From NCBI GenBank assembly GCA_945877405.1, contig CAMCSA010000011.1:1-58636 (forward strand): a DNA stretch of 58,636 nt, given 5' to 3'. The stretch is from an uncultured Erysipelotrichaceae bacterium (lineage in GTDB: Bacteria > Bacillota_I > Bacilli_A > Erysipelotrichales > Erysipelotrichaceae). The notes below the pieces were generated by a model that did no database searches, was not told the DNA's origin, and saw only the letters and a program-made list of their open reading frames with translations. The translations under genes were made by a program, and so were the position numbers. This document shows positions 37,306 through 48,057 of this stretch, one piece after another (positions within the stretch are counted from its first letter, which is position 1; each line of letters begins with the position of its first letter).

Positions 37306-38817
37306 TCAAAAATACGTAAATAATACTGATGTCTGATCTTCAAGGACCAATGTCTTTGTTGCAACAGCATCAGCAAAAGCCTGATCATGTTCAACAAACA
37401 ATATGGTTGCATTACAGTTTTCGATCAGTTCCTGCAGCTGCATACGGACAAAGATATCGATATAGTTCAATGGTTCATCCCAGATATATAGATGTGCTCT
37501 GGATGCAAGACTTCCGGCAAGTGCAGTCAGTTTTTTCTGCCCATAGGAATACTGGGAAATGTCCATTTCAAACAGATTTCTTTCAAAACCGAGCTTTCTC
37601 AGCAAAGCAAGAAACAGCGTGCAGTTGATATCATGCTGATCAGCATATTCATACGGGGATCCGGAAAGGGAAGAGGTGTCCTGCGGCACATAGGATATAA
37701 TCAGATTTCTGCCGCACTTCAATGTACCGGTAAAAGGAATGTCGCTTCCGATCAGTGACTTCAGAAATGAACTTTTTCCACAGCCGTTAGGACCGGCAAC
37801 AGCGATTCTATCACCTGGATGAATGGACAGGGAAACCGGTTGAAACAATGGTCTATCATAACAGATCGTAAAGTGATCGAAAACAATCATCGGATCGGAG
37901 TGAAATGCAAGTGGGTGCAGCTTCAGCTGTTCGGTTGTCTCCACATTCTGCAACAGACTCTTCTTTTCCTGGATTGCTTTTTCTGCATGTTTCTGAATCT
38001 GGATGGATCGCTTCATCATTTTTGCGGCTTTATGTCCGATTCTTCCTTTATCCGGTTTCAATCCTGCGATTCTTGTGCCGTTTTTTGTTTTTTCCACAGA
38101 TGCTGACCACTGAGCTGCCTGAAGGGAAGATGCATGCAGGCGCTCGATATCTTTGAGCAGCTGCCGGTTTTGTGAAAGTTGTGATTGTGTTTCGATGGTG
38201 TACTGCTGATACCATGAGGAAAAGGATCCAGCAGTAATCGAAATATCGGTTCGATTGAGTGAAATCGTGTGGTCGGTGCATTGATCCAGAAAAGCACGGT
38301 CATGGGATACAATCATATAACCTGTTTTCTGTTTTCTCAGATATGCACTCAAGATTTTTCTTCCGGATGCATCCAGATGATTTGTCGGCTCATCGATCAG
38401 AAGATAATCGTGGTGTGTCAGAAACAGACCGGCAAGCATGACCTTGGTCTGTTCGCCATAAGAAAGTTTATCAAAGGGCTGATACAGCACATCCTCTTTG
38501 ACCTGCAGCAGTGAAAGTTCTTTTTCAAACTGCCAGAACTGTGCCTGTGGTGCAATTTCTTCCAGTATGGAATACGTCAGGAAAGAAGGATTGCTGATGG
38601 AAAATGGATAAGCGGAAACAGAAATGTGCGGTTCAATGCTGCCGCTGTATGTATATTTTCCCTGCAGCAGGGCTAATAACGTGGTCTTTCCTTTTCCGTT
38701 TCTTCCAATCAGTCCTGTTTTCCAGTCTGTATCAAAGGAAAAGGATATCTGATCAAAGACAGGCGCATTACCTGTCGGGTATGTGAATGATACATTATGC
38801 AAAGAAATAAGTGACAT
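37306..38817 (-). CDS. Lsa-like ABC-F ribosomal protection protein
   Basis: The 503-residue protein has two ATPase cassettes and no membrane part. Cassette 1 has GLIGRNGKGKTT, LSYGEQTK and LLIDEPTNHLD. Cassette 2 has VAGPNGCGKSS, YSYGQKKL and IWDEPLNYIDI. The linker WSASVEKTKNGT..GLKPDKGRIGHKAAKMMKRS is close to Lsa-type factors, which displace lincosamides, pleuromutilins and streptogramin A from the ribosome. Length is normal for Lsa. It is preceded by a leader with a three-residue ORF, typical of antibiotic-induced ABC-F genes. Which drugs it acts on cannot be told. Confidence 0.9.
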   Translation of the reverse strand: MSLISLHNVSFTYPTGNAPVFDQISFSFDTDWKTGLIGRNGKGKTTLLALLQGKYTYSGSIEPHISVSAYPFSISNPSFLTYSILEEIAPQAQFWQFEKELSLLQVKEDVLYQPFDKLSYGEQTKVMLAGLFLTHHDYLLIDEPTNHLDASGRKILSAYLRKQKTGYMIVSHDRAFLDQCTDHTISLNRTDISITAGSFSSWYQQYTIETQSQLSQNRQLLKDIERLHASSLQAAQWSASVEKTKNGTRIAGLKPDKGRIGHKAAKMMKRSIQIQKHAEKAIQEKKSLLQNVETTEQLKLHPLAFHSDPMIVFDHFTICYDRPLFQPVSLSIHPGDRIAVAGPNGCGKSSFLKSLIGSDIPFTGTLKCGRNLIISYVPQDTSSLSGSPYEYADQHDINCTLFLALLRKLGFERNLFEMDISQYSYGQKKLTALAGSLASRAHLYIWDEPLNYIDIFVRMQLQELIENCNATILFVEHDQAFADAVATKTLVLEDQTSVLFTYF

Positions 38818-42100: not shown

Positions 42101-44029
42101 TTACTATTCACAGCCAATTTGAAAACTGACAAAACCTGTCAATAGGAGTTATCCACAAAATGCACTTTTTTTGAAGATATTGAACCTTCATTGAAGTGCA
42201 TTTTTAAGCTCATACTGACGGATGTTATTGCCGACTCAATTATTTTCACCGATGGTCAAGAACCCACTTTAGATTGCGTATATTGGATGTCAGGGATGAT
42301 TCCTGCTGCGTAACTGACGCTTTTTTCGTTTTTATTTCTTGAAAAGTTATCCACATTTTCGACGAAATTATGCATGTTATAATCCTTCTTGTAATTGGAG
42401 ATGTGGATACTATGGCTGATTCTTTCTATGAACTGTATTGTGAAGAAGTAAGAAAAAATGAAATTCTTGTAAAAGAAAACACGAACCTGAAAATTCAGGT
42501 CAGATCTCTTACTTCCCGTGTCAGATATCTTGAAGAAAATGAAGATAAGATCATTGAAAGAAAAGTAGAAGCCAAAGTTAAAGCTGAAGTAGATAAGGTA
42601 ACAGAAGCTTTTGAAGATAAGGTCATATCGTTGGAAAAGACAGTGGATCATCTGCGCTCTGTTCTGAATAACGACTCAACAAATTCCGGTATTCCCACAT
42701 CCAAAACAGCCATCAGTAAAGCAAAACATATTCCGAATTCAAGAGAGAAATCAGGAAAGGCTGTTGGAGGACAGAAGAACCATCCAAAACACAAACTCGA
42801 AAGATTTCATGATGGTGAAGTAACGGATTATGTCGATCATAAGACTGATACATGTCCTGTATGTCATACACAAATGGTAATCAATGGCGAAGGTACGATA
42901 AAAGATGAATATGATTTCAGAATTGTTGTGAAGAAAATAAGGCATCGATTTTATGAAACGGTATGTCCGGTATGTCATCATATGGAAAGAGTCAGTATTC
43001 CAGCCCATTTAAAAGAAGAAAATCAATATGGATATGGTGTTCAGAATCTGGCACTAACGCTGGTGAATGAAGGGTTTGTATCCGTGCACAGAACAAAGGA
43101 AATCATCATAGGACTTACAGGTGGTGAAATTGATCTGAGTGAAGGATATATTTCAAAGCTGCAGAAAAGACTGTCTGATACCCTTGTTCCCTTTATCACG
43201 GATCTGAAGAAACATATACTTAACCTGAATATCCTGCATTGGGATGATACGGTCATATTCATCAATAAGAAGAATGCATGTCTGCGATTCTACGGAAATG
43301 AAGAACTTGCCTTTTACACAGCACATGAGCAGAAGAATAAAGAAGGCGTTGATGAGGACAATATTCTGCCATTACTGCGATCAGATCAGATGGTTGTGCA
43401 TGATCACAACAAGGTCAATTACAACAGTGATTATGAATTCCAGAATGTGGAGTGCTGTGTTCATCTGCTGAGAGACCTGAAAAAGGTGGTAGACAATCTG
43501 GACCATGAATGGCCAAAGAATTTGATTGAGTTACTGCTGAGGGAAAACCATAACAGGAATATCGGAAACTATGTAGATGCAGGATACATCAGTCTGATAT
43601 ATGACCAGTATGTGACGGAAGGATATTATGAAAATCTGAATGACAGGAACAGGTATTATGGAGATACGGAGGAAACGCTACTGAAAAGGTTGGAGAAATA
43701 TAAAGAAAACTATCTGATGTGGACTTTGAATGAAGAGATACCGTTTTCCAACAATGTCAGTGAAAGATCATTGAGAAGCAGTAAAACAAAAATGAAAGTA
43801 TCAGGCCAGTTTATTAATCTCAAGAATGCAGAGTATTACGCAAATATCAGAAGTTATCTTGAGACAGGACATAGACATGGAGTGAACAGTTCTGAACTGA
43901 TTGAACGTGCATTGAAAGGGGATCCGATCCTGGTAGAAGAAATGAAAGAACACGATAAATCCGAAGAGTAAAACACTTCAGAGACATCGTGTTTTTCGTA
44001 ATGGTTTCTAATTGGCTGTGAATAGTAAC
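42101..44029 (+). mobile_element. IS66-type element, complete, 1929 bp
   Basis: Perfect 20-base terminal inverted repeats (42101-42120 and 44010-44029) extend to about 25 bases with one mismatch. The flanks are TTATTAGG (42093-42100) and TTATCAGG (44030-44037), an 8-bp target duplication with one difference, the length typical of IS66. It carries one large transposase and no tnpA/tnpB accessory genes. About 290 bases at the left are non-coding, and nothing else is recognised there. The mismatch suggests an older insertion than the IS4 element. Confidence 0.9.
42412..43971 (+). CDS. IS66-family transposase (TnpC-like)
   Basis: The 519-residue protein has an N-terminal coiled coil (about 5-95, Lys/Glu rich). 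A zinc-finger pair follows (TCPVCHTQM...VCPVCHHMERV). The DDE core is next: first Asp in LHWDDTVIFINKK, second in QMVVHDHNKVNY / ECCVHLLRDL, and NNVSERSLRSSKTKMKVSGQF supplying the Glu. These are hallmarks of IS66 transposases. The start at 42412 follows GGAG at 42397 by 11 bases; an in-frame GTG three codons earlier is possible. The gene is intact. Confidence 0.9.
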   Translation: MADSFYELYCEEVRKNEILVKENTNLKIQVRSLTSRVRYLEENEDKIIERKVEAKVKAEVDKVTEAFEDKVISLEKTVDHLRSVLNNDSTNSGIPTSKTAISKAKHIPNSREKSGKAVGGQKNHPKHKLERFHDGEVTDYVDHKTDTCPVCHTQMVINGEGTIKDEYDFRIVVKKIRHRFYETVCPVCHHMERVSIPAHLKEENQYGYGVQNLALTLVNEGFVSVHRTKEIIIGLTGGEIDLSEGYISKLQKRLSDTLVPFITDLKKHILNLNILHWDDTVIFINKKNACLRFYGNEELAFYTAHEQKNKEGVDEDNILPLLRSDQMVVHDHNKVNYNSDYEFQNVECCVHLLRDLKKVVDNLDHEWPKNLIELLLRENHNRNIGNYVDAGYISLIYDQYVTEGYYENLNDRNRYYGDTEETLLKRLEKYKENYLMWTLNEEIPFSNNVSERSLRSSKTKMKVSGQFINLKNAEYYANIRSYLETGHRHGVNSSELIERALKGDPILVEEMKEHDKSEE

Positions 44030-44056
44030 TTATCAGGGAATCTGCCTGTTATCTGC

Positions 44057-44062
44057 TATAAT
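44057..44062 (+). promoter_or_regulatory. -10 box six bases before the methyltransferase-fold gene
   Basis: A perfect TATAAT ends 6 bases before the ATG at 44069, with no ribosome site between. The -35 position (about 44034-44039) falls at the IS66 junction and is not a consensus box. Transcription would begin at the ATG itself. Confidence 0.5.
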
Positions 44063-44068
44063 GGCACC

Positions 44069-44785
44069 ATGCAGAAAAAAGTAATCTACACTGAAAATAC
44101 ACCATATGGGCTGATCGAAGTGGAAGACATGATGATCTATGGAGATATGATCCGTCTTCTGATGGTTGATGGGAATCCGGAATCTGCCATGTATCTGGAG
44201 GAAGAAAGAAAATATGATCTTCTGTTTCCATACATGCAGAGATTTTCCTATGCTTTTGTATGCAATCCGAAAATCCGCAATACTCTTCTGATCGGTGGTG
44301 GTGCCTTTTCATATCCGAAATATTATCTGGAACATTATCGTCGCAGTAAAATAACTGTCATTGAACTGTCACAGACAATAATTGATCTGTCCAGAAAGTA
44401 CTTTCGTCTGGATGAGCTGGACGTTGAGCAGAAGTCCAACCTGAAGATTGTATGTGAAGATGCATTTTCATGGCTGGATGAAACAGATGAAAAGTTTGAC
44501 TGGATCATCAACGATGCCTTTATCGCAGATGTGATGCAGGGAAGAGATGAATCAATTCTTGCTAAGGCTGTTTCTCATCTGAACCCGGGTGGAATCTACA
44601 TGGAAAATCATGTATCAGCCCTTCGTGGTTTTGGGGCAAAAAGTCTGTTCCGCAGAGAAAAGCAGATGAGAGAATATTTTGATTCCATAACAAAAATCAT
44701 CTGTGATGAGGATGTATCCTCATTTTCCCGGCAGAACTTTGTTCTGACAGGGATACGAAAGGAGGATGCAGATGTCAAAGACTGA
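44069..44785 (+). CDS. Spermidine synthase-like methyltransferase-fold protein
   Basis: The 238-residue protein has a Rossmann core with LLIGGGAFSYPKYYLEHY (76-90), acidic Glu99 in VIELSQTIIDLSRKYF, EDAFSWLDE and DWIINDAF. These match the spermidine synthase-like branch of S-adenosylmethionine-dependent enzymes. True polyamine synthases have a longer N-terminal sheet and a conserved Asp pair, so the reaction here is open. It overlaps the next gene by 14 bases and leads a three-gene coupled operon. The chosen ATG lies directly after a TATAAT. A longer frame from 44012 would start inside the IS66 end. Confidence 0.8.
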   Translation: MQKKVIYTENTPYGLIEVEDMMIYGDMIRLLMVDGNPESAMYLEEERKYDLLFPYMQRFSYAFVCNPKIRNTLLIGGGAFSYPKYYLEHYRRSKITVIELSQTIIDLSRKYFRLDELDVEQKSNLKIVCEDAFSWLDETDEKFDWIINDAFIADVMQGRDESILAKAVSHLNPGGIYMENHVSALRGFGAKSLFRREKQMREYFDSITKIICDEDVSSFSRQNFVLTGIRKEDADVKD

Positions 44786-45545
44786 AGAAACAAAGCTGCT
44801 GGAGGATGCACTGCATCAACGACAGATCGAAAAAAGAGAATATGGATGTGAAGAAGTGACGATCGGATTCAAAGCAGGTGGAAAAGGAGACGAAATTGTC
44901 GACTATATGACAATGGATGCTTCAGACCAGTTCCGCTGTTATGAGATTAAAGTGACATTATCTGATCTGAAATCAGACAATGCTCTGTCATTTTACGGGG
45001 ATTACAATTATCTTGTTGTTTCTGACAGTCTTTATCTGCGCAACCCTGTGTGGGAAAACCATATTCCTCCTTATGCCGGTATACTATGCGGGAAAGATCT
45101 GCGTGTCATCCGTCAGGCAAAACTGAAACGGATTGATGAACAGACGAGACAGATGCTGAAAAGTTCTCTGTTGCGTTCTGTCTGCTGGAAATATGAAAAT
45201 CACCGTAATGCGCAGATCCTGAATGATACGCGTGCTCTAAAACGGCAGATGGAACAGATGAAACAGGAATATCAGAATAGAATTGAAGAACTGGATCAGA
45301 TGGAATGGACGTGCCATGATTTTGAATACTATTATGGAGCCAATCATCAGATTACTGATTTTCATCTGGAAAAGGAAGCCATGGTACAAAGAAAGCAGTA
45401 TGCTTTGCGGAAAGAAGGCAGAATGAGCTGGACGAGTGAAAATGGTGAGCTGGAATGCCCGGTCTGTGGTACTCATCAGAATCAGGAAACACCATACTGT
45501 CCATACTGTGGAACGGATCTGAGAAAAATGAAAGAACATGAGTGA
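44772..45545 (+). CDS. MmcB-like PD-(D/E)XK protein with C-terminal zinc ribbon
   Basis: The 257-residue protein has a nuclease-like core: EIVDYMTMD (Asp44), then CYEIKVTLSDLKSDN with Glu58-x-Lys60, and FYGDYNYLVVSD. This is the layout of MmcB/PD-(D/E)XK restriction-type folds. A helical middle (about 120-190) follows, then a zinc ribbon with Cys229/232 and Cys243/246 (CPVCG...CPYCG). It may bind or cut nucleic acid; no substrate is known. The start at 44772 has AAAGGAGG six bases upstream; the ATG at 44766 is too close to it. It overlaps the next gene by 8 bases. Confidence 0.75.
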   Translation: MSKTEETKLLEDALHQRQIEKREYGCEEVTIGFKAGGKGDEIVDYMTMDASDQFRCYEIKVTLSDLKSDNALSFYGDYNYLVVSDSLYLRNPVWENHIPPYAGILCGKDLRVIRQAKLKRIDEQTRQMLKSSLLRSVCWKYENHRNAQILNDTRALKRQMEQMKQEYQNRIEELDQMEWTCHDFEYYYGANHQITDFHLEKEAMVQRKQYALRKEGRMSWTSENGELECPVCGTHQNQETPYCPYCGTDLRKMKEHE

Positions 45546-48057
45546 AATGAAGAATGTAAAACATATCTGTACAGGATTGCTTGCCCATGTTGATGCGGGC
45601 AAGACCACCTGTGTAGAAGCAATGCTGCTGAACAGCGGCACAATCCGCAAGGCTGGACGGGTCGATCATGGCGATACGATCCTTGACTATGATGAACAGG
45701 AAAGAAGTCATGGCATTACGATTTATGCCAAAGAAGCCCACATGAAATGGATGGATGCAGAGATTGATCTGATTGATACACCAGGCCATGTGGATTTTTC
45801 TGCGGAAATGGAAAGAAGTCTGTCTGTATTGGATGTGGCAGTATTGCTGATCAATGGACAGGATGGAGTACAGGCTCATACGCATACGATCTGGAAATGC
45901 CTTTCCCATTACAATGTACCATGTATCGTATTTGTCAATAAAATGGATATCTCATTTCATACACAGCAGGAACTGCTGGAAGATCTGCATACGCATTGCT
46001 CGGATATGTGTGTGCAGTGGGATGAAAACAGAGACGATACACTTGCGTTAGCAAATGATGAAATACTGGAGGCAGTATCGCAGACAGGAGTCATACCAGA
46101 ACAGCTGCTGCAGCAGGCATTCATGAAACGGCAGTTTTTCCCGGTTCTTTTCGGTAGTGCCTTAAAGAATCAGGGCGTAGATACCCTGATGAATCTGATG
46201 TGTCAGCTTGTTCCACAAAGAGAATATCCGGAAACATTTGGGGCAAAGGTATTCCGTGTTTCATTGGATCCACAGGGCAATCGATTGACGCACATGAGAA
46301 TTACAGGTGGCATTCTACGTGCCAGGGATCGATTCAATGAAGAGGACAAGGCAGATCAGATCAGACGATACAATGGCGTCAAATATGATCTTCTGATGGA
46401 AGCTGGTGGCGGAGAAGTCGTATGTGTTAAAGGGATATCTTCCATGGAACCAGGGGCTGGACTTGGATTTGAAAAGGACAGCAGTTCATCCTTACTCAAT
46501 GCCAGCATGACCTATCAGCTGGAACTGCCTGAAGGGGCAAGCCCGCTTGTTCTGGCTGATACGTGTGCAACACTTGCCAGTGAAGATCCACGTCTTGAAA
46601 TCAGCACGGATGAAAGAACAGGAAGAATATCTGTCTGTATCATGGGTAAAATGCAGATGGAGGTACTGCAGAAAAAGATCTATGAATCTTCTGGTATTAT
46701 GGTAGGTTTTTCAACAGGAAAAATCGTCTATCAGGAAACGATCAGAGGACCGGTTGATGGTGCAGGCCATTTTGAACCGTTACGCCATTATGCAGAAGTG
46801 CATGTCAGGCTTGAACCATTACCATCCGGCAGTGGAATACAGGTCGTTAACGGAATCGGAACAGATTCTCTGTCCGCCGCATGGCAACGTTCCATTCTTT
46901 CTGCCTTAAGCAGGAAAAGGCATCGTGGTGTACTGACTGGTTCATTCCTTACCGATGTCAGAATCATTCTGACAGCTGGCAAAGGACATATCAAACATAC
47001 AATGGGTGGTGACTTCAGACAGGCTGCCGGCAGGGCTGTGCGCCAGGCATTGATGAAAGCGGAATCCATTCTGCTGGAACCATATGAATCCTTTGAACTG
47101 ACTGTACCATCAGAAAGCCTTTCACGAGCACTGTTTGATCTTGAAAACAGGGAGTGCAGTGTTGAAGTGAAAGAAAATGAAAACGGCACCATGTGTATTC
47201 AAGGAGAAGGACCTGTCAGAACATTACAGAACTACAATGGTGAAGTGACGGTCTATACAAAGGGAAAAGGCATCTTCTTAAGTGAAACAGCCGGATTCAG
47301 ACCATGCAAAGAAGCGGATCGGATCATTGCGGAAATCGGATATGATCCGGAAATGGATCTGCATCATCCTGCGGATTCTGTCTTCTGTGCAAATGGCAAC
47401 GGCTACAATGTCAGATGGGATGAAGCAGATGAGCATATGCACATCCAATTGAAAAATGGTGAGGTGCCTTCTTCTGCGATGCGCTCGACACGGTATAAGG
47501 TATCTGAGGGAGATCTTGGATACATCATGGAAATGACAGCAGGCAGAAATCGCAATCCGGATAAAGAAGCAGAAGAAAGAATCCGGAAGGAAAAAGAGAA
47601 GAAACGGGAAGAAATGGCTGAGATGTCACGCGTCAGAGCTTCTGTGAATCTGCCTGATATGATGGTTGTGGATGGATACAATATGGTCTATGCCTGGGAT
47701 GAACTCAAGTCTTTGGCTCAGGAAGATCTGTATCTTGCGCGTGAAAAACTGATTACGGCCTTATATAACTGGCAGGCATATTATGGTCATCCGATTACCG
47801 TTGTCTTTGATGGATATCGTGTTGCCAATAACACGGGAACTACCCTGAAAAAACAGGATCTGACGATTGTCTACACAAAAACCGGGGAAACTGCAGATAC
47901 ATGGATTGAAAGGTTTTCCTACCAGAATCAGAACAGATACCGAATCACTTACGTATCATCTGATGCCCTGATTCAGAATGCCGTACTTTCCAGAAATGGT
48001 TTACGCATGAGTGCCAATGCGTTATATCAGAAACTGAAAGAATTTTCCATTTTATGA
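45538..48057 (+). CDS. Tet(M)-like ribosomal GTPase fused to a Rae1/YacP NYN ribonuclease
   Basis: The 839-residue protein has an EF-G/Tet(M)-type translational GTPase (about 1-665): LAHVDAGKTT (15-24), RSHGITIYA, DTPGHVDF with His84, NKMD (134-137), and a domain IV with HTMGGDFRQAAGRAV. A very charged helix (about 669-703) links it to an NYN domain (704-839). That domain closely follows B. subtilis Rae1: VVDGYNMVYAW (Asp712), VVFDGY (Asp758), TKTGETAD (Glu784, Asp787) and SSDALIQNAV (Asp809). Rae1 cuts mRNA in the ribosomal A site; Tet(M) clears that site. The start overlaps the upstream stop (ATGAGTGA). Resistance function is unproven. Confidence 0.9.
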   Translation: MSEMKNVKHICTGLLAHVDAGKTTCVEAMLLNSGTIRKAGRVDHGDTILDYDEQERSHGITIYAKEAHMKWMDAEIDLIDTPGHVDFSAEMERSLSVLDVAVLLINGQDGVQAHTHTIWKCLSHYNVPCIVFVNKMDISFHTQQELLEDLHTHCSDMCVQWDENRDDTLALANDEILEAVSQTGVIPEQLLQQAFMKRQFFPVLFGSALKNQGVDTLMNLMCQLVPQREYPETFGAKVFRVSLDPQGNRLTHMRITGGILRARDRFNEEDKADQIRRYNGVKYDLLMEAGGGEVVCVKGISSMEPGAGLGFEKDSSSSLLNASMTYQLELPEGASPLVLADTCATLASEDPRLEISTDERTGRISVCIMGKMQMEVLQKKIYESSGIMVGFSTGKIVYQETIRGPVDGAGHFEPLRHYAEVHVRLEPLPSGSGIQVVNGIGTDSLSAAWQRSILSALSRKRHRGVLTGSFLTDVRIILTAGKGHIKHTMGGDFRQAAGRAVRQALMKAESILLEPYESFELTVPSESLSRALFDLENRECSVEVKENENGTMCIQGEGPVRTLQNYNGEVTVYTKGKGIFLSETAGFRPCKEADRIIAEIGYDPEMDLHHPADSVFCANGNGYNVRWDEADEHMHIQLKNGEVPSSAMRSTRYKVSEGDLGYIMEMTAGRNRNPDKEAEERIRKEKEKKREEMAEMSRVRASVNLPDMMVVDGYNMVYAWDELKSLAQEDLYLAREKLITALYNWQAYYGHPITVVFDGYRVANNTGTTLKKQDLTIVYTKTGETADTWIERFSYQNQNRYRITYVSSDALIQNAVLSRNGLRMSANALYQKLKEFSIL

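Follow-up and report, generated by a model that had tools for sequence, protein, structure and literature searches.

In Bacillus subtilis, the ribonuclease Rae1 (YacP) cuts mRNA in the A site of the ribosome (PMC12320835, PMC6613710), and a loss-of-function change, R166P, lies in its C-terminal part (PMC6613710). In Tet(M), it is Pro509, at the tip of domain IV, that overlaps tetracycline in structure (PMC7456112). The two protein types have been seen joined: as stated in the excerpted text of Atkinson 2015 (PMC4342817), a YacP-like NYN domain is found on the Tet proteins from ten species of Clostridiales, for which a novel resistance mechanism was suggested. The architecture has thus been known since 2015; as far as the searched literature and that excerpt go, the new elements are the replacement of rae1, the single origin with its tip motif, and the persistence of the NYN domain after loss of the GTPase, the excerpt containing no mention of rae1 loss, a single origin, the tip motif or a reductive series. 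No experimental work on the fusion was found in the literature searched.

The window analysed here, a stretch of 58,636 nucleotides from an uncultured Erysipelotrichaceae bacterium (contig CAMCSA010000011.1), contains such a fusion as one open reading frame of 839 amino acids, with the following features:

45538..48057, + strand: whole fusion gene, EF-G/Tet-like translational GTPase plus Rae1/YacP NYN RNase, 839 aa
45559..46215, + strand: G domain, residues 8-226, with AHVDAGKTT, DTPGH (His84), NKMD and SAL all present
46243..46704, + strand: domains II and III, residues 236-389, weak in Pfam, with the EF-G fold in the model
46717..47064, + strand: domain IV, residues 394-509, on average the most conserved domain of the family
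46978..47019, + strand: domain IV tip loop GKGHIKHTMGGDFR, residues 481-494, with K486 at the position of Tet(M) Pro509
47071..47313, + strand: domain V, residues 512-592
47314..47454, + strand: C-terminal extension of the GTPase, about residues 593-639, GYDPExD..SVFCxHGAG..VxWDE
47455..47637, + strand: tether, residues 640-675 disordered (low pLDDT), then a charged helix, 676-700
47662..48042, + strand: Rae1/YacP NYN RNase domain, residues 709-835, with D712, N715, D758, D787 and D809

The pairing of GTPase and NYN domain that the initial annotation had read from this frame was recovered by Pfam, with GTP_EFTU at residues 8-226 (2e-50), EFG_IV at 394-509 (2e-16), EFG_C at 512-592 (6e-15) and NYN_YacP (PF05991) at 709-835 (1e-35, 123.7 bits against a gathering cut-off of 24.6); EFG_III (25.2 versus 27) and EF-G_D2 (17.5 versus 27) were below threshold. 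An AlphaFold2 model, built on an alignment of relatives and with a mean pLDDT of 85, spans the entire EF-G fold and reaches a Z of about 39 to ribosome-bound EF-G structures, so that the description of the GTPase as complete is fair despite the sub-threshold Pfam domains. The high rmsd of the ribosome-bound EF-G matches probably reflects domain rearrangement, and the archaeal EF-2 structure 6U43 fits the GTPase model at 3.3 A over 558 residues. The charged helix had been proposed to act as a flexible tether, which agrees with the disordered stretch that precedes it in the model; in the alignment, the tether is variable and gapped among relatives. The C-terminal extension of the GTPase is common to the fusion and to its NYN-less relatives. 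Translation may start at M4 (45547), close to the starts of the relatives, instead of at 45538. The fusion is real and conserved, and it looks functional.

The closest solved structure of the C-terminal part is Rae1 (5MQ8; phmmer E 4e-16), and the NYN part alone superimposes on it with a Z of 17.0 and an rmsd of 2.4 A over 123 residues, the next fold having a Z of 8.9. Residues D712, N715, D758, D787 and D809 are invariant in 53/53 fusions and do not vary among 43 fused, 20 standalone and 6 reduced proteins. Among the acidic residues of Rae1 that had been listed as retained, Asp712, Asp758, Asp787 and Asp809 therefore stand; Glu784 was ruled out as a catalytic residue because its position is not conserved, being Q in 70% of the fusions and mostly E or Q across the NYN forms. 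The NYN domain of the window stops near position 130 of the 166 in the PF05991 profile, about 35 C-terminal positions being absent, and several fusions from Clostridia extend to profile position 165. The window domain would thus be a Rae1-type domain rather than a full-length Rae1 protein, and, since the C-terminal part is missing, its substrate contacts may differ from those of Rae1.

On sequence grounds, the GTPase half is a member of the translational GTPase superfamily, in the EF-G/EF2 branch: the P-loop, DTPGH, NKMD and SA are invariant or nearly so in the relatives, and the catalytic His is kept. The closest solved structure to the first 588 residues is Tet(M) (3J9Y, E 2e-75), and the best NCBIfam match is tet_protect. 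The scores to the tetracycline-protection models (NF012153 and NF033148) are nonetheless below both curated cut-offs, at 383 bits versus 775 and 278 versus 1100; a true Tet protein (L185) obtains 823 with the general ribosomal protection model and 1286 with that of Tet(M)/Tet(W). The EF-G model TIGR00484 is not reached either (255 bits versus 659.4), and besides the fusion the genome encodes an EF-G proper as well as other EF-G-like proteins. In a tree of the GTPase part, the family members group in a single clade (SH-aLRT 100) that excludes Tet(M) and Tet(O), a separation that rests on three reference rows (L229, L230, L185); two Streptomyces rows that were first grouped with Tet are EF-G paralogues by NCBIfam. 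The domain IV tip reads GKGHIKHTMGGDFR in the fusion versus GLYYSPVSTPADFR in Tet(M), KHTxGGDFR being the family signature common to fusions and NYN-less relatives, and the place of Pro509 is taken by lysine (Lys486) in 43/44 fused and 22/22 NYN-less proteins. No domain of the family is better conserved than domain IV, so the tip of this domain is strongly constrained for a role different from the known Tet contact. The loss of Pro509 alone is no proof of missing tetracycline activity; clade, score and distribution add to the case. Together, the low Tet scores, the separate clade, the exchange of Pro509 for Lys and the order-wide distribution described below contradict the label of a Tet(M)-type factor given in the initial annotation, and favour its other suggestion that the protein is something other than plain resistance.

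The fused NYN is the only YacP domain of the window genome, and this situation is common. In the order, 104/148 genomes have exactly one YacP domain, which in 96/104 lies in a frame of 600 or more codons. Of 293 Clostridia genomes sampled, 193 contain a YacP domain, and 188/193 contain exactly one. Among the matches listed for 148 Clostridia genomes, 84 were fused, 61 standalone, and 1 genome had both, against 17.5 expected if the two forms were independent, an exclusion test that ignores shared ancestry. A second YacP domain is present in four of the fusion genomes from Clostridia (one is the genome listed as both, three have an unlisted second match); that in one genome (G486) looks like a duplicate contig.

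The standalone copies sit in the operon cysS-mrnC-(thyX)-rlmB-rae1-sigH, annotated so in C. difficile, and genomes with a standalone rae1 retain the gene at this position. In 14/14 informative fusion genomes, including that of the window (contig C14), rlmB is followed by sigH and rae1 is absent; a fifteenth stretch (G486) was left out of the count because the operon is not shown there. The sequences thus show that the separate rae1 has been lost from the rlmB-sigH operon and that its domain now lies within the GTPase gene, with the catalytic residues kept. NYN-less GTPases of the family in Neobacillus, Paenibacillus and Intestinibacter each occur with one standalone Rae1, and those in Clostridia mostly do so, 3 genomes being without any Rae1; one Clostridia genome (G606: L202, L208) has two NYN-less paralogues besides its standalone Rae1. 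In another genome (G697: L218, L194), which has an NYN-less family GTPase, a free NYN domain lies outside the rlmB operon and falls within the fused NYN clade, and it would be either a product of fission or a relic of the pre-fusion state. Matches to an NYN gene on C. difficile plasmids were considered as a mobile Rae1 and rejected, since the stretch is the cysS-rlmB-NYN-sigH-tuf-nusG operon, which these records carry under a plasmid label; one such record (L274, NZ_CP149721.1), carrying the ribosomal operon cysS-rlmB-NYN-sigH-nusG, is probably a piece of chromosome.

The survey of homologues proposed in the initial annotation revealed that the fusion is conserved as one gene, with few splits: matches at E < 1e-100 are present in 98/148 genomes of the order, mostly full length and at about 31-60% identity, and Clostridia, too, contain the fusion widely (Lachnospiraceae, Oscillospiraceae, Ruminococcus, Mogibacterium). 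Recurrence in about two thirds of the 148 order genomes and across Clostridia excludes a chance or assembly join. This distribution gives no support to a mobile resistance gene. Two unannotated faecal records named 'Bacteriophage sp.' (MT835563.1, MT835514.1) contain full-length fusions of 41% and 38% identity, which would be prophage cargo or bacterial DNA in these records.

Two changes are needed to place the fused and NYN-less states on the GTPase tree, most simply one gain of the fusion and one loss in a Bifidobacterium/Collinsella branch nested among the fusions. The NYN tree places the fused domains together in a single clade (99) that is separate from nearly all standalone Rae1, the exceptions being a fast-evolving Mogibacterium row outside the clade and the free NYN of G697 inside it. 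Most simply, then, the fusion arose a single time, within a GTPase family separate from Tet(M)/Tet(O). The nested NYN-less GTPases of Bifidobacterium and Collinsella (L128, L129, L134) suggest a transfer into Actinomycetota with loss of the nuclease; a YacP domain is absent in Bifidobacterium, and a distant one is present in Collinsella.

Reduced forms exist within a single genus of the same bacterial family. Next to species with full fusions, two species encode proteins of about 600 aa without domains IV-V that keep the NYN domain, and two further species encode the linker and NYN alone (201-205 aa); no family GTPase was found in a search of the latter two species. In one genome (G045), the halves lie next to each other as two genes that overlap by 4 bases, and the tip is degenerate. 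The nuclease thus persists where the GTPase has been lost, an argument for the nuclease as the selected output and for the GTPase as a delivery part dispensable in some reduced genomes, and against drug ejection as the function.

The surroundings of the gene are not conserved. Just upstream (44012-45545, + strand) lie two frames, one with a spermidine-synthase-like methyltransferase fold and one encoding a protein with a C-terminal zinc ribbon, the latter overlapping the fusion gene by 8 bases, an arrangement not conserved in relatives. Neighbours vary among the relatives compared, which yielded no conserved operon partner and no conserved neighbour that could be an antitoxin, and a PADLOC search for defence systems returned no family for the fusion; a toxin-antitoxin or defence reading was rejected on these grounds. 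An ABC-F ATPase encoded at 37306-38817 (- strand), about 7 kb from the fusion, matches the 'ribosomal protection-like ABC-F family protein' model (420 versus a cut-off of 380) and is below the Lsa family cut-off (624 versus 750); it would be another ribosome-acting factor near the fusion. An IS66-type transposase-like frame of 533 aa (42370-43971, + strand; 151 bits versus 180) lies about 1.6 kb upstream of the fusion gene.

Our main reading, to which we assign a probability of roughly 0.6, is that the fusion is the Rae1 of its lineage, a ribosome-associated endonuclease for mRNA that sits at the C-terminal end of a dedicated translational GTPase and is delivered by it to ribosomes. The pair would probably work as one ribosome-guided mRNA cutter and not in drug resistance. 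The EF-G-like body and the KHT tip would bind ribosomes that are stalled or slow and whose A site is empty, and this binding would bring the tethered NYN domain to the A site. The initial annotation had both parts entering the same site, which poses a problem, as domain IV and the Rae1 domain cannot occupy one A site together; the cycle must therefore be sequential. Upon GTP hydrolysis, domain IV would withdraw, and the NYN domain would then swing in and cut the A-site mRNA, the cut leading to mRNA decay and, through truncation of the message, to rescue of the ribosome. The roughly 36 disordered residues and the 25-residue helix look long enough in the model for such a swap. We infer GTP-coupled A-site cleavage from these features. 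The more specific proposal, that the GTPase samples stalled ribosomes and, upon hydrolysis, hands the A site to its own Rae1 domain, with the KHT family as a general partner of Rae1, is tentative and falls clearly short of even odds. It should be noted that the NYN domain is retained in some species that have lost domains IV-V or the GTPase altogether, so the GTPase is not always needed, that the window NYN is without the Rae1 C-terminal part, and that a second YacP domain occurs in four fusion genomes of Clostridia, all of which count against the main reading.

The two halves might be merely linked, the NYN domain doing the job of Rae1 alone and the GTPase being a separate EF-G-like accessory factor, so that fusion would only co-express them. 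The NYN-only and split forms (G144, G134, G045), the free NYN-less GTPases beside standalone Rae1 and the poorly conserved linker would all be expected from this; the retention of one fusion across many genera at about 31-60% identity with few splits, and of catalytic residues in both halves, makes it rather unlikely. The 2015 proposal, that a tetracycline ribosomal protection protein gained an RNase, with the GTPase ejecting the drug and the RNase assisting, can draw on tet_protect as the best match at 383 bits, on the RefSeq name of one relative ('TetM/TetW/TetO/TetS family tetracycline resistance ribosomal protection protein') and on the placement of the fusions with Tet in the excerpted text of Atkinson 2015 (PMC4342817). 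That score is half of the curated cut-off of 775, however, the family is a clade of its own, SPV(S) with Pro509 is replaced by KHT at the tip with K486 in 43/44 fusions, the gene occurs in the majority of genomes across an entire order and not sporadically as acquired resistance would, and two species have deleted domains IV-V and kept the NYN domain, so that we regard this explanation as quite improbable.

Alternatively, the NYN domain might mature rRNA or tRNA, with the GTPase bringing it to ribosomal particles in assembly or recycling. EF-G paralogues can act in recycling, which counts for this idea, as does a proposed role of NYN domains in rRNA and tRNA maturation (Anantharaman and Aravind 2006, cited via the excerpted PMC4342817). 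Sequence, structure and ancestral operon nevertheless identify the present NYN domain as Rae1/YacP, a nuclease that acts on mRNA in the A site (PMC12320835, PMC6613710), which leaves maturation a very remote prospect.

If GTP-driven cleavage in the A site is correct, the fusion would belong to an undescribed type of rescue and mRNA-surveillance factor. The KHT GTPase family as a whole, which also occurs NYN-less and then usually beside a free Rae1 in Bacillota, would in that case partner Rae1 generally. The replacement of free Rae1 by the fusion names a little studied translational GTPase family as a candidate for the recruitment of Rae1 to particular ribosomes. Related gut genes are labelled as tetracycline resistance although they are without the defining tip residue and fall well short of the curated cut-offs. 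Among the 'Tet' calls made in Clostridia and relatives, some may thus be housekeeping genes of mRNA surveillance, which bears on resistance surveys.

Among known systems, the RelE-type A-site mRNA nucleases have a fold different from NYN, and the fusion may similarly cut mRNA in the A site. With EF-G and EF-G2 it shares the G domain, the fold and a tip histidine (His484, aligned with the EF-G tip His); its GTPase is shorter and below the EF-G cut-offs. Tet(M)/Tet(O) (PDB 3J9Y) have the same EF-G-like five-domain plan and about 31% identity over the GTPase part, and differ in the tip (SPVSTPADFR versus KHTxGGDFR), whereas the fusion is below their curated cut-offs, forms a separate clade and has the added C-terminal extension and NYN domain. 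The NYN-Tet fusions of Atkinson 2015 (PMC4342817) very probably belong to the same protein family, to judge from the excerpted text, in which they are read as a resistance variant. Rae1/YacP of Bacillus subtilis (PDB 5MQ8, 5MQ9; PF05991) is the same domain by sequence and fold, with the same invariant D/N/D/D/D residues, and the fused form is found where the operon's standalone rae1 is gone. Rae1, however, is a free protein of 170 aa, whereas here it is the C-terminal domain of a GTPase, encoded outside the rlmB-sigH operon and, in the window copy, without the Rae1 C-terminal part, and its activity is putative.
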